From Desulfuromonas sp. (lineage in GTDB: Bacteria > Desulfobacterota > Desulfuromonadia > Desulfuromonadales > BM103), in assembly GCA_002869725.1 (NCBI GenBank), contig PKTY01000026.1, positions 1-39,819 of the forward strand: 39,819 nucleotides of DNA, written 5' to 3'. The notes beneath the pieces are model-generated. The model saw only the letters and a program-made list of their open reading frames with translations. It ran no database searches and had not been told where the DNA came from. A program made the translations under genes and the position numbers. Numbering within the stretch: the stretch's first letter is position 1; each line of letters begins with the position of its first letter. Shown piece after piece: positions 18,313-39,445 of this stretch.

Positions 18313-19365
18313 ATGACCCTGCTCCGCCCCGACATTGCCGCCATGGCCGGCTACGTTCCCGGTTTCCAGCCCCCCGACAACGAGGCCTGGATCAAGCTGA
18401 ACACCAACGAAAATCCTTATCCGCCCTCACCGAAGGTGCTTGAGGCGATCATGGCGGAACTCGGCTCCGACGCCGAGAGCCTGCGCAAGTACCCCGATCC
18501 CGCCAGCCGGGCCATGCGTCAGACCGCCGCCGGGCTGTACGGTTTCCCAGTCGACTGGCTGATCACCGCCAACGGCTCCGACGAACTGCTCAACAACCTG
18601 ATTCGCGCCTGCGCCGAGTCCGGAGAGGAGATCGGCTATGTGCACCCCTCCTATTCCTACTATGCGACTCTGGCCGAGATCCAGGGGGCAAAGGTTCGGA
18701 CGTTCGGGCTCGATGAGAACTTCCGCCTACTCGATTTCCCAACCCGCTATGCCGGGAAGCTGTTCTTTCTGACCACCCCCAACGCACCTCTGGGTTTCGC
18801 CTTCCCGTTGGATTATATCGACGAGCTGGCCGAGCGCTGTGCCGGCCTGCTGGTGATCGACGAGGCCTATGTCGATTTCGCCGAATTCTCGGCCTTGGAA
18901 CTGGTGCGCAAACAGGCCAACGTCGTCGTTACTCGAACCTTCTCCAAGAGCTACTCCCTGGCCGGCATGCGCCTTGGACTGGCCGTGGCCCGGCCGGAGA
19001 TCATTAGGGCGCTGGACAAGATCCGCGACCATTACCATCTCGACCGCCTGGCGCTGGCCGCAGGGAACGCCGCGTTGAACGACCAGACACACCTGACAAA
19101 GACCGTGGCGCGGATACGGGCAACCCGAGAGACGTTTGTCGCCGGTCTGGAAAGACTCGGTTACTGCGTCATCCCTTCCCAGGCCAATTTCGTCTTCGCC
19201 TCCCCCCCGGACCGCAACGGCAAACGGGTCTATGATGCCCTGTTTGACCGCAAGATCCTGGTTCGCTACTTCAGCGACCCGATCCTTGCCCACGGCCTGC
19301 GCATGACCATCGGTACCGACCTTGAGATGGAACAGACCCTGGCGGCGCTCAAGGACATTGGGTAA
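18313..19365 (+). CDS. hisC: Histidinol-phosphate aminotransferase
   Basis: [20 protein letters not shown]...[16 protein letters not shown]...[13 protein letters not shown]...[19 protein letters not shown]. Confidence 0.94.
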
Positions 19366-20483
19366 TGACCAACGATTGTAGGGGCACAACGCGCTGTGCC
19401 CCTACGGAATTTCCCTTCGAGCCCGCTGCTGTCGCCCCCTCGCTTCTCGCCTGGTACGGCCGCCAGGGGCGTGACCTCCCATGGCGTGGCACCCGCGACC
19501 CCTACCGGATCTGGCTCTCCGAGATCATGCTGCAGCAGACCACCGTCGCGGCGGTGATCCCCTACTACCAGACGTTTCTGGCCAGCTTTCCGACCATTGA
19601 GAAACTGGCCGCCGCCGGGATCGACGAGGTCCTCGAACTCTGGGCGGGCCTTGGCTACTATTCCCGGGCCCGCAATCTGCACAAGGCTGCGTGTCAGGTC
19701 ATCGAAGTCCACGGCGGAAAGTTTCCCGGCAGCCTGGACGGGCTGCTGGCTCTGCCGGGGGTCGGCCGCTCGACCGCCGGTGCCATTCTCAGTATCGCCT
19801 TCGATCAGCCGGCGCCGATTCTCGACGGCAACGTCCGCCGGGTGCTGGTGCGGCTGTTTGCCTGGCAGCAGGATCCGCGCAGTCGCGAGGCCGAACACCG
19901 GCTCTGGCAATGGGCCGACGAGCTGACCTCGCGGGAGTCCCCCCACGACTATGCCCAGGCGATCATGGACCTCGGCGCCCTGGTCTGCACTCCTCGCCAG
20001 CCCCTCTGCCCGCAATGTCCGTTTCAGGAAATTTGTCAGGCGCAGCAGCTGGGCCTTGTCGAGCATCTGCCGGTCAAACGCCGCAAAAAGGCGGTGCCGA
20101 CCCGCCATCAGGTCGCCCTGTTGCTCAAGGACGGTCAAGGGCGGCTTCTGGTTCGGCAGCGCCCCCTGAGTGGGCTGCTGGGTGGCATGTGGGAGTTCCC
20201 CGGAGTTGAAATCGGCGGGACAGAGACCGCCGAAGCCGCTGCGCTTAGATGCCTCAGAGAACTCGGCCTGTCGGCCGCGCTGCAGCAAATGGCCTGTCTC
20301 CCTCAGCTCTACAGCCACTTCAAGCTCGAGCTGACGGTATTTTATGGCAGGATCGCAGAAACCGGGCGGGTGGCCGAAACAGAAGCGCAATGGCTCGATG
20401 ATTTCGCCCTGGGCTCTCTGCCGCTACACGGCGTGCAGCGCAAGGCTTATCAGCAGCTGTCCAAGGCACAGCCTGTCACGTGA
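19365..20483 (+). CDS. mutY: A/G-specific adenine glycosylase
   Basis: HhH-GPD SEIMLQQTTVAAVIPYY, LPGVGRSTAGAILSIAFDQPAPILDGNVRRVL; Fe-S CTPRQPLCPQCPFQEIC; C-terminal NUDIX-like domain. Confidence 0.96.
   Translation: MTNDCRGTTRCAPTEFPFEPAAVAPSLLAWYGRQGRDLPWRGTRDPYRIWLSEIMLQQTTVAAVIPYYQTFLASFPTIEKLAAAGIDEVLELWAGLGYYSRARNLHKAACQVIEVHGGKFPGSLDGLLALPGVGRSTAGAILSIAFDQPAPILDGNVRRVLVRLFAWQQDPRSREAEHRLWQWADELTSRESPHDYAQAIMDLGALVCTPRQPLCPQCPFQEICQAQQLGLVEHLPVKRRKKAVPTRHQVALLLKDGQGRLLVRQRPLSGLLGGMWEFPGVEIGGTETAEAAALRCLRELGLSAALQQMACLPQLYSHFKLELTVFYGRIAETGRVAETEAQWLDDFALGSLPLHGVQRKAYQQLSKAQPVT
19378..19405. repeat. REP-like perfect palindrome in the 5' end of mutY
   Basis: GTAGGGGCACA (19378-19388) - ACGCGC - TGTGCCCCTAC (19395-19405). 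Confidence 0.85.
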
Positions 20484-23310: not shown

Positions 23311-23354
23311 TTTGCCGACCAGGATGGGACAATGTCCTGTCCGATCATGGGACG

Positions 23355-24224
23355 ATGTCGACTCAGGATCTTCTACAATTCATCTTTGCCGGGCTGACTG
23401 GAGGAGCGATCTATGCCTTGATCGCTCTCGGTTTCTGTGTGGTGCACAACACCATGGGGATCGTTAATTTCGCTCAGGTCGACTTCGTCTCCCTCGGTGG
23501 GATGCTCCTCTATTCGGCGCTGTTCAGCCTCGGACTGGCAATGCCGTTGGCTCTGTTGGGGGCTGTCCTTGGCGTGGTGATGGTGGCGATGCTGGTCGAG
23601 CGCATCGGCATCCGCCCGGCACGTAGCAGCGACCCGCTGGTGCTGATTTTTCTGACCATCGGTCTGTCGATCATCCTGCGAGGGATGATGGCACTGATTT
23701 GGGGGAAGACCCGCATGGGTGTGCCGCCGCTGGCCGGAGAGGAGCCGCTGCGCCTGCTCGGGGCAGCGCTGATGCCTCAAACGGTGTGGATTCTGATGCT
23801 GACCGGATTGGCCATCGGCGTACTGGCCTGGTTCTATCGCAAGACCCGACTCGGTCTGTCGATGCGGGCGGTGGCGACCAACCCGGCGGCGGCGGCGGTG
23901 GTCGGTCTGCCGGTCGGGCGGGTACGGATGTGGACCTTCGGTCTTGCCGGTGGCCTCGGTGGTCTGGCCGGGGTGCTGGTGACGCCGATCACCACCCTCA
24001 GTCACGACGTCGGGGTTCTGCTCGGACTCAAGGGCTTTGCCGCTGCCATTCTCGGCGGATTCGGCTCCCTGCCCGGGGCGATCCTCGGCGGGCTTGGGCT
24101 GGGGCTGCTGGAATCTTTATCGGCCGGTTATATCAGCAGTGCCTACAAGGATGTCTGTGCCTTTGTGGTTCTGCTGCTGGTGCTGTTTGTGCGTCCCCAG
24201 GGGTTGCTGGGGAAATCGACCTGA
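23355..24224 (+). CDS. livH: Branched-chain amino acid-type ABC transporter permease (LivH)
   Basis: LLQFIFAGLTGGAIYALIALGFCVVHNTMGIVNFAQVDFVSLGGML; ...ILGGFGSLPGAILGGLGLGLLES. Confidence 0.92.
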   Translation: MSTQDLLQFIFAGLTGGAIYALIALGFCVVHNTMGIVNFAQVDFVSLGGMLLYSALFSLGLAMPLALLGAVLGVVMVAMLVERIGIRPARSSDPLVLIFLTIGLSIILRGMMALIWGKTRMGVPPLAGEEPLRLLGAALMPQTVWILMLTGLAIGVLAWFYRKTRLGLSMRAVATNPAAAAVVGLPVGRVRMWTFGLAGGLGGLAGVLVTPITTLSHDVGVLLGLKGFAAAILGGFGSLPGAILGGLGLGLLESLSAGYISSAYKDVCAFVVLLLVLFVRPQGLLGKST

Positions 24225-24261
24225 AATTGGGAATATTTGCTGACAAGTGAAGAACGAGACG

Positions 24262-26079
24262 ATGAATAAGAAGCTGCTGATGGGGAACGAGGCGATTGCC
24301 CAAGGTTTGATAGAGGCCGGCTGTCAGCTGGCCACCGCCTACCCGGGAACGCCTTCTACCGAAGTTCTGCAAGCGGTGATCGACAATCGTGATGAAGCCG
24401 TTGATCCCCTGCATATTGAGTGGTCGGTCAACGAAAAGGTTGCCTTCGAGGTCGCTTTGGCCGGCAGTTACACCGGCAAGCGTGCCGCCACGGTTATGAA
24501 GCAGGTCGGACTCAATGTAGCGGCCGATCCCTTCATGCGCACCGCCTATCTCGGCGTCAAGGGGGGGATGCTGACCATTGTCGCCGACGATCCGGGACCG
24601 CACAGCTCTCAGAACGAGCAGGATACCCGGCTGTTCTGTCTGCAGGGGAGGGTGCCGATCCTCGATCCGGCCAGTCCGGCCGAAGCCCGCCAGCTGGTCC
24701 CTCTGGCTTTCGAGCTGTCGGAAAAATATGAGTTAAACATGGTGCTGCGGCCGACCACCCGCATCTGCCACTCGCGGCAGAATGTGGTGCCGGCCCAGCC
24801 TGAGACCCACGGACGTACCGCGGATTTTCAGAGAGACCCGACCCGCTGGGCGGCCACCCCGGCCTTTTTGCCGGCCCTCCATCGCAAGCTCAACGAAAAA
24901 CTGGCACAGATTGCCAGGGAGCCGGCCGTTCAACCGCGGCTGATTGCCGGAAACGGCAGCAAGCCGCGCACCGCTCTGGTCGCTTCCGGGATCGTCTATG
25001 GTCATCTCGTCGATCTGCTGACTGATCTCGACCTGCATGGCAAGGTCGATCTTTTTCAGGTGGTGATGCCCTACCCCCTGAACCCGGAGTTCATCGCCAG
25101 GCTTCAGGCCGACTACGATCGGCTGCTGATCCTTGAAGAGACCTACCCGGTGATCGAGCTGCAGCTGGGCCACCCCGGCGCGGTCGGCAAGCAGAGTGGT
25201 CTGGTGCCACGCGAGGGGGAGCTGACTCCGGACGTGGTCCACCAGGCACTGGCCCTCTTCCTTGGTCTGGAGCCTCCCGCCGAGAGTCCTGCAGAACGAC
25301 GGGGCCAGCGGCCTTCCCTCTGCCCGGGCTGCCCCCACCGGGCGGCCTTCTACAGCATCAAGCAGACCTTTCCCCAGGGGATTTTCCCCTCCGACATCGG
25401 CTGCTACACTCTCGGGATGAACCTCGGAGCGGTCAACACCGTGCACTGCATGGGGGCCTGCATCAGCCAGGGGGCCGGTTTTTACCAGGCTTATCTGCAG
25501 GATGGCGAAGTGCCGCCGATTGTGGTTACCATCGGCGATTCGACTTTTTTCCATTCAGGGATTCCGGCCCTGATCAACGCGGTGATTCAGCAGGCGCGAA
25601 TCATCGTGGTGATCCTCGACAATGCCACCACCGCCATGACCGGTGGTCAGCCGGTCCCCCACATGGGAGTGGCTGCCGGCGGCGCGGCAACCCGGGCGGT
25701 GGCTATCGAACCGTTGGTCAAGGCCTGCGGTGTCGATTTTGTCGAGGTCTGTGATCCCTATGATCAGCAACGCTTCATGACGCTTCTGCGACAGGCTGAC
25801 CAACATGCCCGCAGCCCGGAGGGTGGCGTTGCCGTGCTGATTTCGCGCCATGGCTGTATCATGGAGCCGGCCGTCCGCCAGGGACAAACACGATGGAAGG
25901 TGTCGATCGACGAGCGCTGTGTCGGTTGCCGCAAATGTGTTGATGCCTTCGAGTGCCCGGCGCTGAAGATGGACGACCAAAACAGTGTGGCTGTGGTCGA
26001 TCAGGACCGTTGCGTCGGCTGCGGCACCTGCCTGCCGGTCTGTCCGGTCGCAGCCATTGTCAAGGAGGAGAGCCGGTGA
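24262..26079 (+). CDS. iorA: Indolepyruvate ferredoxin oxidoreductase subunit alpha
   Basis: LLMGNEAIAQGLIEAGCQLATAYPGTPSTEVL; LCPGCPHRAAFYSIKQ; TPP-binding GDSTFFHSGIPAL; C-terminal CVGCRKC...CVGCGTCLPVCPV ferredoxin domain. Confidence 0.95.
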   Translation: MNKKLLMGNEAIAQGLIEAGCQLATAYPGTPSTEVLQAVIDNRDEAVDPLHIEWSVNEKVAFEVALAGSYTGKRAATVMKQVGLNVAADPFMRTAYLGVKGGMLTIVADDPGPHSSQNEQDTRLFCLQGRVPILDPASPAEARQLVPLAFELSEKYELNMVLRPTTRICHSRQNVVPAQPETHGRTADFQRDPTRWAATPAFLPALHRKLNEKLAQIAREPAVQPRLIAGNGSKPRTALVASGIVYGHLVDLLTDLDLHGKVDLFQVVMPYPLNPEFIARLQADYDRLLILEETYPVIELQLGHPGAVGKQSGLVPREGELTPDVVHQALALFLGLEPPAESPAERRGQRPSLCPGCPHRAAFYSIKQTFPQGIFPSDIGCYTLGMNLGAVNTVHCMGACISQGAGFYQAYLQDGEVPPIVVTIGDSTFFHSGIPALINAVIQQARIIVVILDNATTAMTGGQPVPHMGVAAGGAATRAVAIEPLVKACGVDFVEVCDPYDQQRFMTLLRQADQHARSPEGGVAVLISRHGCIMEPAVRQGQTRWKVSIDERCVGCRKCVDAFECPALKMDDQNSVAVVDQDRCVGCGTCLPVCPVAAIVKEESR

Positions 26080-26615
26080 AGCAGCAAATTATCGTTAGCG
26101 GTATCGGTGGCCAGGGGGTGCTGTTTCTGACCCGGGTCGTCGCCCAGGCCGGTGTGTTGCGCGGTCTGCCGGTGCTGACCGCCGAAACCCACGGCATGGC
26201 TCAGCGTGGCGGCACCGTGTTGTCGACCATCAAGGTCGGCAATTTTGCCAGCCCGTTGATCCGTACCGGGCAGGCCGATGTCGGCCTGCTGTTGTGGGAG
26301 GCCAACCTGTCGGTGCATCGCCCCCTGCTCAAGGAGAATGGGCGATTGCTGATCAATGCCGCTCAGGACGGTGAGGGGGAGAGGATCGATGCGGCCGGGC
26401 TGGCCAGAGATCTGGGGAATGCAGTCCTTGCCAACCTGGTCCTGCTCGGGTTGGCGGTGCACAAGCAGGCGCTGTTCTGTCTGGCTGAGGAGTGCGAGGC
26501 AGCGATCAGGGAGCTGGCTCCCGCCAGGTTTGTCGACCAGAACCTGGCGGCCTTCCGGCTCGGTCTCGACCCTTGCCATTCAAGCCATTGCCAGGAGCTT
26601 GCGGAGCGCGAATGA
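26076..26615 (+). CDS. iorB: Indolepyruvate ferredoxin oxidoreductase subunit beta (GTG start)
   Basis: KQQIIVSGIGGQGVLFLTRVVAQAGVLRGLPVLTAETHGMAQRGGTVLSTIKVG; GTGA overlap with iorA. Confidence 0.94.
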   Translation: MKQQIIVSGIGGQGVLFLTRVVAQAGVLRGLPVLTAETHGMAQRGGTVLSTIKVGNFASPLIRTGQADVGLLLWEANLSVHRPLLKENGRLLINAAQDGEGERIDAAGLARDLGNAVLANLVLLGLAVHKQALFCLAEECEAAIRELAPARFVDQNLAAFRLGLDPCHSSHCQELAERE

Positions 26616-27604
26616 CGGCCGGGGAAAAGCTTCTTTATTTTATCGATCTGCACCGGACCGGGTTGACCCTGCTCGGGCTCTCTCTGGTGCTGGCGATCTA
26701 CCCCTGGGTCTACGGCAACCCCTATATCCTCGGTCTGACCAACCTGATCGGCATCTACACCATCGTCGTTCTCGGGCTCAATCTGTTTATCGGCTACGCG
26801 GGCCAGATTTCTCTGGGCCATGCTGCCTTTTTTGCCATCGGTGCCTACGGTTCGGCGCTGCTCTCGACCGGGGTGGGGCTCTGGCCCTGGCCGGCCATGG
26901 GGTTGACCGCTTTGGTCTCGGCCCTGATTGCCCTGCTGGTTGGGATCCCGGCTCTGCGTCTGCACGGCCACTATCTGGCGATGGCAACCCTCGGCTTCAA
27001 TATCGTCATCTACACCATCCTCGTGCAGTGGGACAGCCTGACCGGTGGCCCGAGCGGCTTTGCCGGCATCCCCTCTTTGAGTCTCGGCCCCTGGCGGCTG
27101 GCCAGTGACCTGCAACTGCATTACCTGGTCTGGAGCAGCGCCCTGATCTGCCTGATGCTCGGCCTCAACCTGGTGCGCAGCGGTGTTGGTCGTGGTCTGG
27201 CGGCCCTGGCTGGTGACGAGGTCGCCGCCCGTTGTCTGGGGGTCGATACCCGCAGTGCCAAGATCAAGGTCTTCGTCCTCTCCGCTGTTCTCGCCTCCCT
27301 GGCCGGCAGCCTCTATGCCCACACTTTCGGCTTTGTGAGCCCGGACACCTTCAGCATCTTCGCCTCGGTCGACTTTGTAACCATGGTGGTGGTCGGCGGG
27401 CTCGGTTCGGTCTGGGGGAGCCTGTTCGGGGCTGCCCTGCTGACCTGGCTGCCGGAGTTTGTCGACCTTTTCGAAACCTACAAGGAGATGATCCACGGGT
27501 TGATTCTGGTGCTGGTGTTGCTGTTCCTGCCGCAGGGCCTGGTGACCGGGCTGCTCGACCTGGCCCGGATGCGGCTGGTTCGCTGGAGGCAGAACCGTGC
27601 TTGA
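26612..27604 (+). CDS. livM: Branched-chain amino acid-type ABC transporter permease (LivM)
   Basis: LTNLIGIYTIVVLGLNLFIGYAGQISLGHAAFFAIGAYGSALL; GGLGSVWGSLFGAALLTWLPE. Confidence 0.92.
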   Translation: MTAGEKLLYFIDLHRTGLTLLGLSLVLAIYPWVYGNPYILGLTNLIGIYTIVVLGLNLFIGYAGQISLGHAAFFAIGAYGSALLSTGVGLWPWPAMGLTALVSALIALLVGIPALRLHGHYLAMATLGFNIVIYTILVQWDSLTGGPSGFAGIPSLSLGPWRLASDLQLHYLVWSSALICLMLGLNLVRSGVGRGLAALAGDEVAARCLGVDTRSAKIKVFVLSAVLASLAGSLYAHTFGFVSPDTFSIFASVDFVTMVVVGGLGSVWGSLFGAALLTWLPEFVDLFETYKEMIHGLILVLVLLFLPQGLVTGLLDLARMRLVRWRQNRA

Positions 27605-28361
27605 GGTCAACAGCCTCTGCCGCAACTTCGGTGGCCTGCCGGCGTTGAGCGAGGTCAGTTTTACGGTGCCGAAGGGGTGTGTCACCGCTCTGATCGGCCC
27701 CAACGGGGCGGGCAAGACCACCCTGATCAACTGCATCACCGGCGTCGACCAGGCGGATTCCGGGCGGGTACGGTTTGTCGGAGAGGAGATTTCCAGGTTT
27801 GCCGCCCACCGCGTTGCCAGCCTCGGAATCTCGAGAACATTTCAGAATCTAAGGCTTTTTCCGCGGCTGTCGGTGCTCGACAATGTCCTGTGCGGGTTGA
27901 CCATCGAAGGGGGGCGCAGCATGATTGGCGCCTTGCTGCGCCCCCCCTCCCTGCGTAACCGCGAGAGACGGCTGCGCCTCAAGGCCCTTGCGGCCCTCGA
28001 CCGCTTCAACCTGCTCGAGCTTGCCGACTGGCCGGTGGGGGTTCTGGCCTATGGTGACCGCAAGCGGGTCGAGCTGGCGCGAGCCGTGATCAGTGAACCG
28101 CAGCTGCTGTTGCTCGACGAGCCGGTGGCTGGACTCAACCATCAGGAGACGGCTGCAGTCGCCCGGGAAATCAGGGCGCTGCGGGCCCAAGGTTTCACCC
28201 TGTTGCTGGTCGAGCACGACATGGATCTGGTCATGGGGGTTTCGGACCAGGTGGTGGTCCTCGATGGCGGCCGTTGCATCGCCCGGGGGACGCCGCAGCA
28301 GGTACGTATCAACCCGCTGGTTCTGGAAGCCTATCTTGGGCGGACCAGCGCCACGGCTTGA
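27597..28361 (+). CDS. livG: Branched-chain amino acid-type ABC transporter ATP-binding protein (LivG)
   Basis: Walker A IGPNGAGKTTLINCITG; ISRTFQNLRLFPRLSVLDNV; Walker B QLLLLDEPVAGLN. Confidence 0.93.
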   Translation: MLEVNSLCRNFGGLPALSEVSFTVPKGCVTALIGPNGAGKTTLINCITGVDQADSGRVRFVGEEISRFAAHRVASLGISRTFQNLRLFPRLSVLDNVLCGLTIEGGRSMIGALLRPPSLRNRERRLRLKALAALDRFNLLELADWPVGVLAYGDRKRVELARAVISEPQLLLLDEPVAGLNHQETAAVAREIRALRAQGFTLLLVEHDMDLVMGVSDQVVVLDGGRCIARGTPQQVRINPLVLEAYLGRTSATA

Positions 28362-28368
28362 GGGTCAT

Positions 28369-30456
28369 ATGCTCAAGATTGAAAATCTGCATGTTCATTA
28401 TGGAAGCGCCGAAGCGTTGCGCGGAATCGACCTGGAGATCGCCGGCGGCGCAACCATCGCCTTGGTCGGTGCCAACGGTGCCGGCAAGTCGACGCTGCTC
28501 AAGGCGGTCATGGGGCTGGTCAAGCCGAGTCGGGGGCGGATTCTGCTTGATGGCAAGGAGGTCACAGGGAACTCTCCGCGACGCATGGTGCAGCTTGGCC
28601 TGGCCCTCTCCCCGGAGGGGCGGGAGCTATTTGGCGACCTGACGGTTCTGGACAACCTGCGCCTTGGCGGGCTGGCTCTCGGAGTCTCCGGAGTCCAGTT
28701 TGAGGAACGGCTGGCTGAAGTTTGCGACCGTTTTCCCAAACTGGCCGAACGACTGGAGCAACGGGCCGCCACCATGTCCGGTGGTGAGCAGCAGATGGTG
28801 GCCATGGGCCGCGCACTGATCGCCCGGCCGAAACTGCTACTTCTCGACGAGCCGAGCCTCGGCCTGGCCCCCTTGGTCACCGACGAAATCTTTGCTATCA
28901 TCCATCAGCTGAGCCGTTCAGGGACCACGATCCTGCTGGTCGAGCAGAATGCTGCCCGTGCTCTGTCGGCCTCAAGCTACGCCTATCTGCTTGCCAACGG
29001 TCGATTGGTCGAGCAGGGGGAGAGTGCGGCCCTGCTTTCCAACCCGAGCCTGCGCCGGGCTTTTTTGGGAGCGGCGTCGGAACAGAACCCTGCAGCCAGC
29101 CGCCTTGGTGCCGCCGGCCTGACCAATATTCGCCTGGAGAAACCTGACATGCAGCAGAATTTCATGCCAAGCTTTACCTCACCGGAGCAGCTCCAGAGCC
29201 ATCAACTGAGGGGGTTGCAGTGGACGGTCAGACATGCCTACCAGGGTTCAAGCTTCTACCGGCAGTCCTTCGAGGGCGCCGGCATCGACCCGGAACAGAT
29301 CAACTCCCTCGATGACCTCAGCCGCCTGCCGTTGACCAGCGCCGACGATCTGCGCGATGGTTACCCCTTCCCTTTGCGCGCCGTCCCCTACGAACAGATT
29401 GTTCGCATTCATGCCAGTTCCGGGACTACCGGCAAGCGCAAGGTGCTGGCCTATACCCAGAAAGATATCGACGATTGGGTGCACTTCTTTGCCCGCTGTT
29501 ACCAGATGGCCGGGGTCAACGTCCTCGACCGGGTGCAGATTGCGGTCGGTTACGGCATCTGGACGGCCGGCATGGGGTTTCAGCTCGGCGCCGAAAAGCT
29601 CGGCGCCCTGGCGGTGCCGACCGGACCGGGCAATATCGACCTGCAGATCCAGTTCCTGCTCGATTTCCAGTCGACGGTCTTCTGCTCGACAGCTTCTATG
29701 GCCTTGCTGATGGCCGAGGAGATCCACCGTCGCGGGATTGCCGAGCGGATCAATGTGCAGAAGGTCATCTACGGCTCCGAGCGCTCCTCGAAATCGATGC
29801 GCCACAAGATCTCGGAGCTGTTTGGCGGCGCCGAACTGTTCGATATCACAGGCTTGACCGAACTGTACGGGCCCGGAACCGGCATCGAGTGCTCGCACCA
29901 CGACTGTATCCACTACTGGGGAGACTACTACCTGATGGAGATCATCGACCCTGAGACCCTCCAGGTCCTCCCGGAGGGGGAGTGGGGAGAGATGGTGGTC
30001 ACCTCGCTGTGCAAGGAGGCGGCGCCGCTGATTCGCTACCGGACCCGCGACATCACCCGGATCATCCCCGGGCATTGCAGCTGCGGCTCAATTCTGCCAC
30101 GGCACTCAAGGATCAAGGGGCGCTCCGACGATACCTTCAAATTCCGCGGGGTCAATATCTATCCGTCGAGTATCGACACCCTGTTGTCGAACATCCCTGG
30201 TCTCGGTTCCGAATTTCAGGTCTACCTGTTGCGGGACGGGGCCAGCGGACGGGATCAGATGCGCCTGGTGGTCGAGCGCGGCCAGGGGGTTGAGTCCGGC
30301 CGCACCCCGCAACTGCTCCACGAAATGATTCACCAGTTCAAAAAGCAGCTGCTGGTGACCCCCGACGTCGAGCTGGTCGATTACGGTCAGCTGCCTCGTT
30401 CGGAGCGCAAAAGCCAGCGGATCTTCGATGAGCGGATTCAGGATGAGATTGTGTGA
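28369..30456 (+). CDS. In-frame fusion: LivF ABC ATPase (codons 1 to about 233) plus phenylacetate-CoA ligase (PaaK)-like domain (from about codon 261)
   Basis: LivF motifs VGANGAGKSTLLKAVMG, MSGGEQQMVAMGRALIARPKLLLLDEPSLGLAP; no stop; then MQQNFMPSFTS...HASSGTTGKRKVLAYTQKD...ITGLTELYGPGTGIEC...LPRHSRIKGRSDDTFKFRGVNIYPSSID of PaaK. Internal ATG at 29149 with GGAG upstream could also start a free PaaK. Confidence 0.85.
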   Translation: MLKIENLHVHYGSAEALRGIDLEIAGGATIALVGANGAGKSTLLKAVMGLVKPSRGRILLDGKEVTGNSPRRMVQLGLALSPEGRELFGDLTVLDNLRLGGLALGVSGVQFEERLAEVCDRFPKLAERLEQRAATMSGGEQQMVAMGRALIARPKLLLLDEPSLGLAPLVTDEIFAIIHQLSRSGTTILLVEQNAARALSASSYAYLLANGRLVEQGESAALLSNPSLRRAFLGAASEQNPAASRLGAAGLTNIRLEKPDMQQNFMPSFTSPEQLQSHQLRGLQWTVRHAYQGSSFYRQSFEGAGIDPEQINSLDDLSRLPLTSADDLRDGYPFPLRAVPYEQIVRIHASSGTTGKRKVLAYTQKDIDDWVHFFARCYQMAGVNVLDRVQIAVGYGIWTAGMGFQLGAEKLGALAVPTGPGNIDLQIQFLLDFQSTVFCSTASMALLMAEEIHRRGIAERINVQKVIYGSERSSKSMRHKISELFGGAELFDITGLTELYGPGTGIECSHHDCIHYWGDYYLMEIIDPETLQVLPEGEWGEMVVTSLCKEAAPLIRYRTRDITRIIPGHCSCGSILPRHSRIKGRSDDTFKFRGVNIYPSSIDTLLSNIPGLGSEFQVYLLRDGASGRDQMRLVVERGQGVESGRTPQLLHEMIHQFKKQLLVTPDVELVDYGQLPRSERKSQRIFDERIQDEIV

Positions 30457-30538: not shown

Positions 30539-31696
30539 ATGAAGCGAGGATTGTTGATGCTAGCGTTGATCGGATTGTGTGCCGGGAGCGCGATGGCCAA
30601 GGAGCCGATCAAGATCGGGGCGTTTTTTGATCTGTCCGGGCCGGCCAGTTTTATCGGTACGCCGACCAAGCTGGTGGCGGAGATGGTGGTCGACAGGATA
30701 AACAAGCAGGGGGGGGTGAACGGCGTGCCCATCGAACTGGTGATCGGTGATACCGAGGGGGATCCGGCCAAGGCGACCACCATCGCCAAGAAGTTCATCT
30801 ACAAGGAGAAGGTGGCGGCCATGATCGGCCCGACCCGCACCGGAACCGGCATGGCGGTCAAGAAACTGGTCGAAGAGGCAGGGATGCCGACCTTCATGAC
30901 GGTCGGCGGCGATCCGGTGATCATGGGCGGCGACAAGTTCGGCTCCTTCGAATATGTCTTCAAGTCTCCCCAGCGCTCGTCGGTGGCGGTCAAGCGGCTC
31001 TATATGTTTCTCCAGCAAAAGGGGCTCAAGAAAGTGGCCCTGCTGACGGCTGCTGATGGTTTCGGCAAGGACGGCGCCCGCTGGCTGACCAAGCTGGCCG
31101 CCGACTACGGTCTTGAGATTGTCGCCGAGGAATCGTTCGGCCCCAAGGATACCGACATGACCGCGCAGCTGACCAAGCTTAAGAACGCCGGTCCGCAGGC
31201 GATCGTCTGCTGGACCATTGGTCCGGCCGGGGCCATTGTCAGCAAGAACAAGGCCCAGCTCGGGCTCGACCTGCCGCTGTTCCAATGTCACGGCCTACCC
31301 GATCCCAAGTACATCGAGCTGGCTGGGGCGGCCAGCGAGGGGGACCGGATGCCGGCTACCAAACTGATGGTTGCGGGCGAACTTCCCGACGGCGATGTTC
31401 AGAAACCGGTGATCGACGAGTTCGTCAAGCTCTATAACGAGACCTATAATTACGACGAGCAGTTCCCGATCAACACCCACTCAGGTTACGCCTGGGATGC
31501 CATCACCATGGTCGCCAATGCCATGAAGCAGGTCGGAACCGAAGCCAAGGCGTTGCGTCAGGCCATCGAGCAGACCAAAAACTATGTGGGAATCTCAGGA
31601 GTCTACAACCTGACGGCCGAGGATCACAACGGCCTCGATGTCGACTCCATGGTGATCGTCGAAGTTAAGGATGGCAGGTTTGTGATGGCGCAATAA
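30539..31696 (+). CDS. livK: Branched-chain amino acid-type ABC transporter substrate-binding protein
   Basis: Signal peptide MKRGLLMLALIGLCAGSAMA; EPIKIGAFFDLSGPASFIGTPTK...KVAAMIGPTRTGTGMAV periplasmic-binding fold type I. Confidence 0.9.
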   Translation: MKRGLLMLALIGLCAGSAMAKEPIKIGAFFDLSGPASFIGTPTKLVAEMVVDRINKQGGVNGVPIELVIGDTEGDPAKATTIAKKFIYKEKVAAMIGPTRTGTGMAVKKLVEEAGMPTFMTVGGDPVIMGGDKFGSFEYVFKSPQRSSVAVKRLYMFLQQKGLKKVALLTAADGFGKDGARWLTKLAADYGLEIVAEESFGPKDTDMTAQLTKLKNAGPQAIVCWTIGPAGAIVSKNKAQLGLDLPLFQCHGLPDPKYIELAGAASEGDRMPATKLMVAGELPDGDVQKPVIDEFVKLYNETYNYDEQFPINTHSGYAWDAITMVANAMKQVGTEAKALRQAIEQTKNYVGISGVYNLTAEDHNGLDVDSMVIVEVKDGRFVMAQ

Positions 31697-31721: not shown

Positions 31722-31758
31722 GGGGTCGGAGCGATCAAGCTCCGGCCCTGTCTCTTTT
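31722..31758. terminator. Terminator hairpin between convergent livK and the NAD-binding protein gene
   Basis: GGGGTCGGAGC (31722-31732) GATCAA GCTCCGGCCCT (31739-31749), one G-T wobble, then TGTCTCTTTT. Confidence 0.7.
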
Positions 31759-32716: not shown

Positions 32717-34159
32717 TTACCCCTTGATCACCGCCAGCGGCTTGAGGCGGGCGACGATCTTGCCGATCCCGGCTTGTTCCACCACATCAACCACTTCGGA
32801 GACATCCTTGTAGGCAGCAGGGATCTCTTCGGCCACCGTGGCGCGTCCGGCGGCCCGCACCATGATCCCCTGCCTGGCGAGTTCGGCGATAATGTCGCGA
32901 CCGCGCGCCGCCTTTTTGGCAGCATGTCGTGACAGCACGCGTCCGGCGCCGTGACAGGTCGAACCGAAGGTCTCGGCGAGAGCGCCGGCGGTGCCGACCA
33001 GCACATAGGAGTAGCGCCCCATGTCGCCGGGGATCAGCACCGGCTGGCCGATGCCGCGATAAGCGGCTGGAGTCTCGGGGTGCCCGGGGGGGAAGGCGCG
33101 GGTCGCCCCCTTGCGGTGGACACAGAGGCGCCGTTTCCGCCCTTCTCGCTCATGCTCCTCCCACTTGGCGATGTTGTGACAGACATCGTAGATGACACTG
33201 AGGCGCAGGTCGGCGGATTTCTTGCCGAGAACCGTTTCGAAGGTTTCGCGCACCCAGGAGGTGATCAGCTGACGGTTGGCAAAGGCGAAGTTTGCGGCGC
33301 AGGCCATGGCTGCCAGGTAGTCCTTCGCTTCGCGGCTGGTGAGGGGTGCGCAGCAGAGCTGGCGATCGGGGAGTTCGATACCGTAGCGGCGGGCCGCCTT
33401 GAGCATGGCCTTCAGGGAATCGTCGCACACCTGATAGCCGAGCCCACGGCTGCCGGTGTGGATACTGACCGTAACCTGGCCGGGGAACAGGCCTAGAGTT
33501 TCGGCGGCCTGCTGATCGAAGAGCTGTTCGACCTTCTGAACCTCGATGAAGTGATTGCCAGAACCGAGGGTGCCAAGTTGAGCCCGGCCGCGCTCCAGAG
33601 CTCGTGCGGACACGGCCTCCGGGTCGGCACCGGCGATGCAGCCAAAGGCTTCAGTGTGGTCGAGGTCGGCGCGGGTGCCAAAGCCTTGTTCGACGGCCCA
33701 GCCAGCGCCGCGGCTTAGCACCTTCTTCTCTTCGGCAATGCTCAGTTTCAGGTCGTGGCGTTGTGAACCGACGCCGGAGGGGATGTTCTGGAACAGGGTG
33801 TCGGCCAGCCGGGCAAGAGTCGGCTCGATTGCGGCGGCTTCGAGGTCAGAGCGCAGCAGGCGCACTCCGCAATTGATGTCATAGCCGACCCCGCCCGGGG
33901 AGACCACCCCCTCTTCGGCATCGAAGGCTGCCACCCCGCCGATGGGAAAGCCGTAGCCCCAGTGGATGTCCGGCATGGCCATGGCCGGTCCGACGATCCC
34001 GGGGAGACAGGCGACATTGCAGACCTGTTCGAGAGCCTGCTCTCTGCGTAGCTGGTCAATCATGCCGGCGCTGGCAAAAACCAGACCCTCGGTGCGCATG
34101 CCGCCCTGGCGGGGGATCCGCCAGCGGCAGGGGTCGATCTGTTCAAGTTTAATGCTCAT
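32717..34159 (-). CDS. rtcB: RtcB family tRNA-splicing/RNA-repair ligase
   Basis: AMAMPDIHWGYGFPIGGVAAFD...SPGGVGYDINCGVRLL...LGTLGSGNHFIEVQ...STCHGAGRVLSRHAAKKAARG. Confidence 0.97.
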   Translation of the reverse strand: MSIKLEQIDPCRWRIPRQGGMRTEGLVFASAGMIDQLRREQALEQVCNVACLPGIVGPAMAMPDIHWGYGFPIGGVAAFDAEEGVVSPGGVGYDINCGVRLLRSDLEAAAIEPTLARLADTLFQNIPSGVGSQRHDLKLSIAEEKKVLSRGAGWAVEQGFGTRADLDHTEAFGCIAGADPEAVSARALERGRAQLGTLGSGNHFIEVQKVEQLFDQQAAETLGLFPGQVTVSIHTGSRGLGYQVCDDSLKAMLKAARRYGIELPDRQLCCAPLTSREAKDYLAAMACAANFAFANRQLITSWVRETFETVLGKKSADLRLSVIYDVCHNIAKWEEHEREGRKRRLCVHRKGATRAFPPGHPETPAAYRGIGQPVLIPGDMGRYSYVLVGTAGALAETFGSTCHGAGRVLSRHAAKKAARGRDIIAELARQGIMVRAAGRATVAEEIPAAYKDVSEVVDVVEQAGIGKIVARLKPLAVIKG

Positions 34160-35355: not shown

Positions 35356-35465
35356 GTGGCGGGAGTGTTTTCCGAAAGACGAGTCAAAACAAGCTGTTAA
35401 TATATTCGTATATTTGAACATCTGGGTTGTCCGATTAATCATTGGGTCTCGAAAGGAGGTTCCGC

Positions 35466-36584
35466 ATGAAACCCGAGAAGGCTGCACCATCTGCCACAAT
35501 CCCCGAGGAGATTCTGGCGCGCATAGAGGCCAGGGGCATTAGCCGCCGAGATTTCATCAAGTTCTGTACAGCGACCACCGCTGCACTGGCTTTGCCGATG
35601 AGCTTTGTGCCGAAAGTCGCGGCGGCGATCGAAGACAAGCGCCCGCCGGTGATCTGGGTCGAGTACCAGAGCTGCTCGGGTGACTCGGAGGCTTTCCTGC
35701 GGGCCAACCAGCCGACGGCGGGAGAGATTATTCTCGACCTGATTTCGCTTGAGTATTCGGATGTGGTCATGGCGGCCGCCGGTCATCAGGCGGAAAAGTC
35801 CAAGTACGATGCCATGGAAAAGTACAAGGGCAAGTATATCCTGATTGTCGAGGGCTCAGTTCCCACAGGGGCCGACGGTGCTTATTGCACCATTGGCGGT
35901 AAAAGTGCCGTCGACGATTGCAAGAAGTTGGTGCAGAATGCTGCCGCAACCATCTGTGTCGGCTCCTGTGCCACTTTCGGCGGTCTCCCGGCGGCCGCTC
36001 CCAATCCGACCAACGCGGTTTCGGTTGGCGAACTGGTGCCGGGTGCGGCCATCGTCAATCTGCCCGGCTGCCCGGTCAATGCCGAGAATCTCACCGCCAC
36101 CATCGTTCATTTCCTGACCTTTGGCCGACTGCCTGCCACCGACCGCCTGGGAAGGCCGCTGTTTGGCTACGGCAAGCGAATTCATGACAACTGCGAGCGA
36201 CGTGGTCATTTCGATGCCGGTCAGTATGCCGAAGCCTTCGGCGATGGTGCCCATCGTCAGGGGCACTGCCTCTACAAACTCGGCTGTAAAGGTCCGGAGA
36301 CCTTCCATAACTGCCCGACGATCCGCTACAACGAGGGCACGTCCTGGCCGGTGATGGCAGGCCATGGCTGCATTGGCTGCTCGGAGCCCGGCTTCTGGGA
36401 TACCATGACCCCCTTCTACCGGCGGCTCCCCAAAGTGCCGGGGTTCGGTATCGAGGACACCGCCGACAAGATCGGCATCGGCTTGGCTGCAGCGACAGCA
36501 GTGGCCTTCGGTCTCCACGGGGTGGCAAGCTGTTTCCGCAAAGGCGATGCCATGGAAGAAGACAAGGTTGTCAAGGAGGACTAA
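35466..36584 (+). CDS. hyaS: [NiFe] hydrogenase small subunit, Tat-exported
   Basis: AAAGGAGGT SD before ATG 35466; Tat motif SRRDFIKF; IVEGSVPTGADGAYC, VGSCATFGG, LPGCPVN, CKGPETFHNCP, GHGCIGCSEPGFWD; C-terminal TM. Confidence 0.95.
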   Translation: MKPEKAAPSATIPEEILARIEARGISRRDFIKFCTATTAALALPMSFVPKVAAAIEDKRPPVIWVEYQSCSGDSEAFLRANQPTAGEIILDLISLEYSDVVMAAAGHQAEKSKYDAMEKYKGKYILIVEGSVPTGADGAYCTIGGKSAVDDCKKLVQNAAATICVGSCATFGGLPAAAPNPTNAVSVGELVPGAAIVNLPGCPVNAENLTATIVHFLTFGRLPATDRLGRPLFGYGKRIHDNCERRGHFDAGQYAEAFGDGAHRQGHCLYKLGCKGPETFHNCPTIRYNEGTSWPVMAGHGCIGCSEPGFWDTMTPFYRRLPKVPGFGIEDTADKIGIGLAAATAVAFGLHGVASCFRKGDAMEEDKVVKED

Positions 36585-36587
36585 ACG

Positions 36588-38300
36588 ATGGCTAAAAAGA
36601 TTGCCGTTGATCCCATTACCCGCATTGAAGGACATCTGCGCATTGAGGCTGAACTCGATGGAGGCAAGATTGCCAATGCCTGGAGCTCATCGACCGCCTT
36701 TCGCGGCATAGAGACCATCCTCAAAGGGCGCGACCCGCGCGACGCCCATCACTTCACCCAGCGCTTCTGCGGGGTCTGCACCACCGTGCATTCCATGGCC
36801 AGCATCCGCGCTGTAGAGGATGCTCTCAACATTCAGATCCCTGATAACGCCCGGTTGATTCGCAACCTGATCATGGGGATTCAGAATGTCCAGGACCATG
36901 TGATTCACTTCTACCATCTGCATGCCCTCGACTGGGTCGATATCGTCAGTGCTCTTTCGGCCGATCCGGCCAAGACATCGCAGATCGCCCAATCGATCTC
37001 CGACTGGCCGAAGTCGAGTACCGACTATTTCAAGGCAGTCCAGGACAAGGTGGCCGCTTTTGCCGGCACCGGCCGGCTTGGTCCCTTCCAGAACGCCTAC
37101 TGGGGGCACTCGGCCTACAAACTGCCGCCGGAAGTCAACCTGATCGGGGTTGCCCATTACCTGGAAGCTCTGGAGTGGCAGAAGGATGTGATCAAGATCC
37201 ACGCCATCCTCGGTTCCAAGAACCCCCACCCCCAGACCTTTCTGGTCGGTGGCATGTCGATCCCGGTCGACCCGGACAGTCAGAATGCCCTCAACGCCGA
37301 CAAGATCGCCTACATCCGCAAGCTGCTGCGCAAGGCGCGTACCTTCGTCGAGCAGGTCTATATCCCCGACCTGCTGGCGGTGGCTCCAGCCTATCTCGAC
37401 TGGGCCGGGATCGGCGGCGGGGTCGGCAACTATCTCTCCTATGGTGATTTTCCCATGGACAACTCGCCAGGAACCGGGAGCCTGTTCTTCCCGCGCGGCG
37501 TGATCATGGGCAAGGATCTCGCCAATGTCATGGAGATGGACGAGAAGAAGATCACCGAATACGTGACTCACTCCTGGTACAGCTACTCCGGTGGCGACGG
37601 CAAAGGACTACACCCCTACCAGGGTGAAACCAGCCATAACTACACAGGGCCCAAGCCTCCTTACGACTTCCTCGATACCGACGGCAAGTATTCCTGGGTG
37701 AAAGCACCGCGCTATATGGATCAGCCGATGGAAGTCGGGCCGTTGGCCAGGGTGCTGGTCGCCTATGCCAAGGGGGTTCCTGAGGTCAAGGCGACGGTCG
37801 ACTTTGTCCTCAAGACGCTGGGGGCTCCGGCGACAGCCCTCTTTTCGACCCTCGGCCGCACCGCCGCCCGTGGCGTCGACTGCCTGCTGCTGGCCCAGAA
37901 GAACGAGCTGTGGCTCGACCAGCTGGCCGACAACATGGGGCGCGGCATCTACGAGACCTTCAACAAGGAGAAGTGGGATCCGGCAACCTGGCCGCGGGAG
38001 GCTCAGGGCTTCGGTTACCATGAAGCGCCGCGCGGGGCGCTCGGCCATTTCATCCGCATCGAGAACCAGAAGATCGCCAATTACCAGGCGGTGGTCCCCT
38101 CGACCTGGAATGCCGGGCCGCGCGACGCCGCCGGCCAGATGGGCCCCTACGAGTCAGCCCTGATCGGAACGCCGATTGCCGATCCCGAGAAGCCCCTGGA
38201 GATTTTGCGCACCATTCACTCCTTCGACCCCTGCCTGGCCTGCGCGGTTCACGTCATGGACGGCAAAGGGACGGAGATTGTCAGGGTGAAGGCCCTCTAA
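36588..38300 (+). CDS. hyaL: [NiFe] hydrogenase large subunit
   Basis: N-terminal RFCGVCTTVHS (RxCGxC) and C-terminal DPCLACAVHVMDGKGTEIVRVKAL with a cleavable tail after His. Confidence 0.97.
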   Translation: MAKKIAVDPITRIEGHLRIEAELDGGKIANAWSSSTAFRGIETILKGRDPRDAHHFTQRFCGVCTTVHSMASIRAVEDALNIQIPDNARLIRNLIMGIQNVQDHVIHFYHLHALDWVDIVSALSADPAKTSQIAQSISDWPKSSTDYFKAVQDKVAAFAGTGRLGPFQNAYWGHSAYKLPPEVNLIGVAHYLEALEWQKDVIKIHAILGSKNPHPQTFLVGGMSIPVDPDSQNALNADKIAYIRKLLRKARTFVEQVYIPDLLAVAPAYLDWAGIGGGVGNYLSYGDFPMDNSPGTGSLFFPRGVIMGKDLANVMEMDEKKITEYVTHSWYSYSGGDGKGLHPYQGETSHNYTGPKPPYDFLDTDGKYSWVKAPRYMDQPMEVGPLARVLVAYAKGVPEVKATVDFVLKTLGAPATALFSTLGRTAARGVDCLLLAQKNELWLDQLADNMGRGIYETFNKEKWDPATWPREAQGFGYHEAPRGALGHFIRIENQKIANYQAVVPSTWNAGPRDAAGQMGPYESALIGTPIADPEKPLEILRTIHSFDPCLACAVHVMDGKGTEIVRVKAL

Positions 38301-38318
38301 CGGAAGGAGGCGCACACC

Positions 38319-38972
38319 ATGCTGAAAATCTACTATGTCTGGCAATGGCCGGTACGGATCACTCATTGGATTAACGTGCTATCGATGATCATGCTGTCGG
38401 TCACCGGGTTCTACATTGGCAGCCCATTCATGACCGCTCCCGATTCGTCGATGTTCATCATGGGCTGGATGCGGTTTTTACATTTCGCCTTTGCCTATTT
38501 GTTCACGGTTTCGGTTGCCTCGCGCATTCTCTGGATGTTCATCGGTAACCACCATGCCTCATGGAAAGCTTTTATCCCCTGGATCACCCCCGAGGGGCGC
38601 AAAAGTTTTATAAAAATGTTCCGCTACTACACCTTCACCGGCAAGAAGATCTCCTACGAGGCCGGCCACAACCCGGTGGCGGCGACCGCTTATCTGGGTA
38701 TTTTTGCGCTCTTTCTGTTCCAGATCGCTTCCGGGTTCGCCATGTATGGGCAGTTTGCCCCGGGCGGTTTCTGGGACGGTATTTTCGGTTGGATGAGCCT
38801 GCTGATTGGAAACCAGTGGCTGCGCCTGCTGCACCACGGTGTGATGTGGCTGCTGGTCGGTTTCATCATCAACCATGTCTACAGCGGCTGGCTGATGGAC
38901 GTGAAGGAGCGCAACGGCACCATGAGCGGCATCTTCAGCGGTTACCGCTTTATCGAGCCGGAGGATCTCTGA
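38319..38972 (+). CDS. hyaB: Hydrogenase cytochrome b subunit
   Basis: YYVWQWPVRITHWINVLSMIMLSVTGFYIG; multi-TM with conserved His, directly after the large subunit. Confidence 0.92.
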   Translation: MLKIYYVWQWPVRITHWINVLSMIMLSVTGFYIGSPFMTAPDSSMFIMGWMRFLHFAFAYLFTVSVASRILWMFIGNHHASWKAFIPWITPEGRKSFIKMFRYYTFTGKKISYEAGHNPVAATAYLGIFALFLFQIASGFAMYGQFAPGGFWDGIFGWMSLLIGNQWLRLLHHGVMWLLVGFIINHVYSGWLMDVKERNGTMSGIFSGYRFIEPEDL

Positions 38973-39445
38973 TGTCAATCCTGGTCCTCGGGCTGGGCAA
39001 CACGATCATGACGGATGACGGTTTCGGGGTGAAGGTGGTCAATGCACTTTCATCCCGTTACCGTTTTGAGGGCCCAGTCACACTCCTCGACGGCGGCACT
39101 CTCGGTCTCGACCTGTTGCCCTATTTGGAAAACCTCGAAAAGCTGCTGATCGTCGATGCCCTCGACATGCGCGCCGCGCCGGGCACCATCTCCCGCATCG
39201 AAGGTGAGGAGGTTCCGCGGGCCTTTGCCAGCAAGCTGTCGGTTCATCAGATGGGGTTGCAAGACCTGTTGGCGGTTGCCGAACTGCAGGGGCATGTGCC
39301 GAAGGAGCTGGTGGTCTGGGGGGTGCAGCCGGAATCGATCGAGATGGGAACCGAATTGACCGCCAGAGTCGAGGCTGCCGTGGACCCGGTGATGGCTGCG
39401 GTGATCGACGAGTTGGGGAGGTGGGGCGTTGCATGTCTGGCGTAG
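38972..39445 (+). CDS. hyaP: [NiFe] hydrogenase maturation protease
   Basis: ILVLGLGNTIMTDDGFGVKVVNAL; LLDGGTLGLDLLPYL; VHQMGLQDLLAVAEL. Confidence 0.94.
   Translation: MSILVLGLGNTIMTDDGFGVKVVNALSSRYRFEGPVTLLDGGTLGLDLLPYLENLEKLLIVDALDMRAAPGTISRIEGEEVPRAFASKLSVHQMGLQDLLAVAELQGHVPKELVVWGVQPESIEMGTELTARVEAAVDPVMAAVIDELGRWGVACLA

Follow-up and report, generated by a model that had tools for sequence, protein, structure and literature searches.

A conserved fusion of a LivF-type importer ATPase with a PaaK-type CoA ligase in Desulfuromonas and related anaerobic bacteria

Peroxisomal ABC transporters of the Comatose/ABCD group carry acyl-CoA chemistry within the transporter itself (PMC6642094). 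A second kind of precedent is provided by genes that yield two products from one frame, as in SctQ/YscQ (PMC4295842) and Cas8b/Cas11b (PMC11899642), where translation also begins at an in-frame internal start and the C-terminal part is thereby made on its own. Here we describe a locus of Desulfuromonas sp. that invites comparison with both. The window, by which we mean the whole stretch of 39,819 nucleotides that was analyzed (contig PKTY01000026.1 of assembly GCA_002869725.1), contains a gene in which the ATPase of a Liv-type importer is continuous with an AMP-forming CoA ligase. Our searches of the open-access literature, with most subscription journals outside their reach, found no published description of a LivF-PaaK fusion, and we provisionally regard it as not described before.

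The livF::paaK frame occupies positions 28369 to 30456 of the forward strand and, with no stop inside these bounds, translates into a single chain of 695 amino acids followed by a stop codon. Pfam places ABC_tran at residues 17 to 163, AMP-binding at 335 to 545 and AMP-binding_C_2 at 594 to 689 of the fused protein. Together with 59 distinct full-length fused orthologues (689 to 698 amino acids, some from single-contig genomes), these matches bear out the first-pass annotation, which had read the locus as one 695-codon frame encoding an ATPase and a CoA ligase. A longer mechanical open reading frame (787 amino acids) could start at a GTG at 28093; homology, however, begins at the ATG at 28369. 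The ATPase domain (residues 1 to 234, positions 28369 to 29070), a solved relative of which is 1ji0, has intact Walker A, signature and Walker B motifs, whose core residues are invariant among the 59 orthologues. The ligase domain (positions 29149 to 30456) finds its best solved match in 4r1l, which it covers across the full domain with the catalytic lysine aligned, and has 2y4o and 2y27 as further solved relatives; it shows the AMP-binding fold with an SSGTTGK loop, and the catalytic lysine is present in 58 of the 59 orthologues. The motifs of both domains are kept in all or nearly all of this set. The first reading had spoken of a complete LivF and a complete PaaK-like enzyme, and the names call for one refinement: the ATPase domain reaches 231.8 bits, missing the NCBIfam equivalog cut-off for LivF (NF008626, 441 bits) and so not ranking as an E. 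coli-type LivF equivalog, and the ligase domain reaches 391.6 bits, missing that for PaaK (TIGR02155, 646 bits). Because of these scores, LivF-type and PaaK-type are the safer names, and phenylacetate is not established as the substrate of the ligase.

In a genome of 426 contigs with 7.3% contamination, a fused frame could reflect an assembly or sequencing error that masks a stop, yet the probability of such an artefact is negligible here, and the reading is refuted by a frame that is open in independent genomes, including the single-contig genomes G040, G065 and G066, and by conserved linker residues. The full fusion is present in many of the nearest 58 genomes. A survey of 277 genomes of the class found the frame open across both domains in 47 and cut by contig ends in 5 more, and all fused genomes of this survey belong to the window's order. 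Outside that order, a phylum sample of 395 genomes yielded 12 further fusions (ten in family f31, one in f66, from G601, and one in f109, from G551), as well as an eleventh f31 match, in G504, that is partial. The fused relatives, mostly MAGs, fall in Desulfuromonadales, Geoalkalibacter and Syntrophales. The fusion is thus conserved among dozens of related anaerobic bacteria and is no local accident. The ortholog survey that had been suggested for this frame therefore shows it kept across the window's order and beyond, contradicting the possibility, also raised in the first-pass annotation, that all relatives encode separate genes.

With respect to origin, a quick tree of 120 PaaK domains places all 61 fused ones within one clade of 69 (support 100), in which eight unfused rows are also found, one of them (L175) cut by a contig end. 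PaaK relatives without a LivF fusion occur inside this clade in G024, G122 and G032, the last of which carries an apparent linker trace, RLEKPHM, upstream of the free PaaK. This distribution fits, but does not prove, a single origin of the fusion with later losses. Unfused genes are arranged as livH-livM-livG-livF-paaK-livK with iorAB adjoining in G328, and as iorB-paaK-livK-livK-livH-livM-livG-livF-paaK in other genomes of the class. Loci L141 to L147 show a second, unfused layout: a paaK of another branch, with about 40% identity, comes directly after livF, and livK occurs twice in succession. The livF-paaK neighborhood also recurs outside the phylum, in several alphaproteobacteria; at L030, L032, L033 and other Rhodobacterales loci, a distant PaaK-type gene lies in the same frame closely after livF, with a stop between them.

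The two domains are joined by a linker (residues 235 to 260, positions 29071 to 29148), the sequence of which had been quoted in agreement with our translation. Its motif P..SRLG..G.TN..L is invariant in 59/59 orthologues (P241, S244, R245, L246, G247, G250, T252, N253 and L256). Mean conservation across the orthologues is 0.95 for residues 240 to 258, compared with 0.80 for LivF and 0.85 for PaaK, and pN/pS for residues 240 to 254 is 0.13, compared with 0.31 and 0.22, a value by which the linker ranks 35th of 136 windows along the gene and is not its most constrained one. Synonymous codon identity across the whole linker is as expected, and this ordinary codon use rules out that the linker is kept merely as a DNA or RNA signal, the internal start site excepted. 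Selection at the protein level means in turn that the linker is translated in frame with LivF; this, together with the order-wide conservation of the frame, supports the earlier proposal that the gene is translated as one chain.

AlphaFold models both domains confidently and leaves residues 233 to 261 at a pLDDT below 50 (pTM 0.54); as a guide to docking, the model, which contained no partner, returned a disordered, low-confidence linker. A linker that is predicted to be disordered yet is this strongly conserved suggests a binding partner, so that it may act as a flexible tether with a docking motif. Outside fused genes, the motif had no significant match in 117 genomes of the class. A derivation of the linker from the tail of IorB was also considered, on the ground of a weak resemblance (IorB tail QNLAAFRLG). 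The same model, with independent folds joined by a disordered segment, and the occurrence of unfused PaaK in relatives of the same clade would also agree with a fusion that is translated but serves fixed co-production and assembly alone, leaving transport and activation uncoupled. We consider this explanation unlikely, as the conservation of the linker exceeds what a passive spacer needs and the fusion has been retained across many families.

The junction also appears to hold a second start site. The first-pass annotation had noted an ATG at 29149 with GGAG 9 nt upstream and had envisaged two isoforms. We locate this GGAG, the candidate Shine-Dalgarno sequence, at 29136 to 29139; the ATG (29149 to 29151, Met261) is the probable start of a free PaaK of 435 amino acids, and the starts of unfused PaaK orthologues align at about the same residue. 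In G328, where the genes are unfused, a Shine-Dalgarno sequence and a start come after the stop of livF, TAAGGAGCCCGCATG. Of the 59 orthologues, 53 have ATG and 4 have TTG at codon 261, and GGAG stands exactly 9 nt upstream in 49, compared with 17.5 ± 3.4 expected from the amino acids and each gene's own codon use; neither GGAG nor GGTG is found in 6. Codon choice within the site is equally skewed, with E257 encoded by GAG in 95% (mean at conserved Glu sites, 54%) and K258 by AAA in 88% (40% for its class), each the extreme of its class. In a tree-based analysis, codons 256, 257 and 258 show the slowest third-position change among comparable Leu, Glu and Lys sites. Predicted mRNA structure around the internal start is the weakest within the gene, but we dropped this as independent evidence, as base composition accounts for the effect.

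Because the internal Shine-Dalgarno sequence and start codon are kept far beyond amino-acid need, the gene probably makes two products, with all LivF as the fusion plus free PaaK, and the idea of two isoforms gains support at the nucleotide level. The fusion may accordingly be pictured as having arisen through loss of the livF stop while the paaK start signal was retained. In G551, there is no ATG at the junction and the internal start is lost, and PaaK is therefore seemingly made there solely as the fusion. A conserved and apparently disordered motif between two domains might also be a protease site, such that the chain is cut after translation and mainly separate proteins act; this seems improbable to us, given that free PaaK would already be supplied by the internal start, making cleavage unnecessary, and that the conserved operon has no protease gene.

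The fused ATPase gene shares its operon with livH, livM, livG and livK, all on the forward strand. Upstream lie the livH permease gene (23352 to 24224; LivH-like by NCBIfam and by synteny, with the start as used in our searches), iorA and iorB for the alpha and beta subunits of a probable indolepyruvate:ferredoxin oxidoreductase (IOR; 24247 to 26079 and 26076 to 26615), the livM permease gene (26612 to 27604) and the livG ATPase gene (27597 to 28361), with iorB, livM and livG assigned by NCBIfam. IorA matches nearly the full TIGR03336 profile with 627.3 bits, just under the cut-off of 650.9 bits. Downstream, a livK-type substrate-binding protein gene (30539 to 31696; NCBIfam and solved relatives) is followed by a terminator-like hairpin at 31722 to 31749. 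Gene overlaps suggest coupled translation. The order livH-iorA-iorB-livM-livG-livF::paaK-livK is kept in most members of the order, while iorAB is not beside the fusion in family f7 and in G551, and IOR is therefore not obligatory in the operon. At the f31-type loci L006 and L209, about 2 kb separate livG from the fusion downstream of it.

Several neighboring genes were recognized by eye. A MutY-like gene stands between livG and livF::paaK at L209 (5264 to 6304), and a MutY-like adenine glycosylase gene is located some 3 kb upstream of livH in the window (19365 to 20483, forward strand), a recurrence that may be due to chance. The window further holds an RtcB-like RNA ligase gene (32717 to 34159, reverse strand) and a [NiFe]-hydrogenase operon (35442 to 39445, forward strand) with small and large subunits, cytochrome b and a maturation protease.

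What the importer may carry is indicated by LivK, whose best solved matches are 3uk0, 3tx6, 4jb0, 3ukj, 3sg0 and 4dqd, which we take to be aromatic-acid binders of HAAT systems of the Rhodopseudomonas type. Open-access literature searches on aromatic-acid binding proteins and aryl-acid salvage gave nothing. The operon and these relatives of LivK make it plausible that import is coupled to trapping as the CoA ester, and we infer the substrate, the channelling and the direction of the pathway as follows. The LivF ATPase, a subunit of a Liv-type (HAAT) importer, would bear, at the end of a flexible and strongly conserved linker, an aryl-CoA ligase of the AMP-forming type; since the ATPase itself carries the ligase, each assembled importer would have a tethered ligase. 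An aryl acid delivered by LivK would be imported at the expense of ATP and converted to its CoA thioester at the cytoplasmic face by the tethered ligase, which might act as a pair with a free copy of PaaK. The neighboring IOR would then interconvert arylacetyl-CoA and arylpyruvate, most likely supplying aromatic amino acid synthesis. IOR enzymes convert arylpyruvates to arylacetyl-CoA, and the reverse direction has been proposed for biosynthesis in a methanogen (PMC13285125).

Oxidative use of IOR, as in phenylpyruvate degradation (PMC5109826) and in amino acid fermentation (PMC13285125), speaks for the catabolic direction, in which an aromatic amino acid or arylpyruvate would be imported, IOR would generate arylacetyl-CoA and the ligase would run in reverse or act on a by-product. 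We consider this rather unlikely: the tie between ligase and importer suggests that an acid is imported, and among 24 fused genomes screened for the benzoyl-CoA marker BamA only 4 exceed its cut-off, and the window's genome does not, which excludes complete aromatic ring degradation as the common role, and that alone. The reading we prefer is that an aryl acid is taken up, activated and then reductively carboxylated, giving precursors of aromatic amino acids. That the fused protein is a two-domain importer subunit, which links aryl-acid import to CoA activation at the importer and to IOR, we hold to be rather probable.

PaaK enzymes dimerize, which would account for the need of a free PaaK copy. 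We put forward, more tentatively, a transport-activation complex in which tethered and free PaaK pair and the linker docks onto the permease, LivG or the oxidoreductase, so that the ligase sits where the import channel opens into the cell. Since nature has joined an importer ATPase covalently to a probable substrate-trapping enzyme across a whole order, the coupling of uptake and activation becomes directly testable. The locus also offers a candidate two-product gene, whose fused frame seems to have retained an ancestral ribosome-binding site, and a strongly conserved, apparently disordered linker for which a candidate partner can be sought.

Compared with the LivFGHMK/HAAT importers of branched-chain amino acids and aromatic acids, the system has the same five component types and intact ATPase motifs, but its LivF subunit carries a covalently attached CoA ligase. 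PaaK phenylacetate-CoA ligases (4r1l, 2y4o and 2y27) match the ligase domain over its full length with the catalytic lysine aligned, whereas here an ABC ATPase is fused N-terminally and the score stays under the equivalog cut-off. The clusters of G328 and of the Geobacter type have the same gene content with livF beside paaK, but the two genes are separate, with a stop between them and without the linker motif. Like SctQ/YscQ and Cas8b/Cas11b, the gene has a putative internal start within the frame that would give the C-terminal part as a product of its own; in our case, a complete enzyme would be made in this way, and both products are predicted from sequence. Finally, Comatose/ABCD proteins likewise hold acyl-CoA chemistry within an ABC transporter, but they are eukaryotic and carry a thioesterase in the transmembrane part, whereas in the fusion described here a ligase domain sits on the ATPase.
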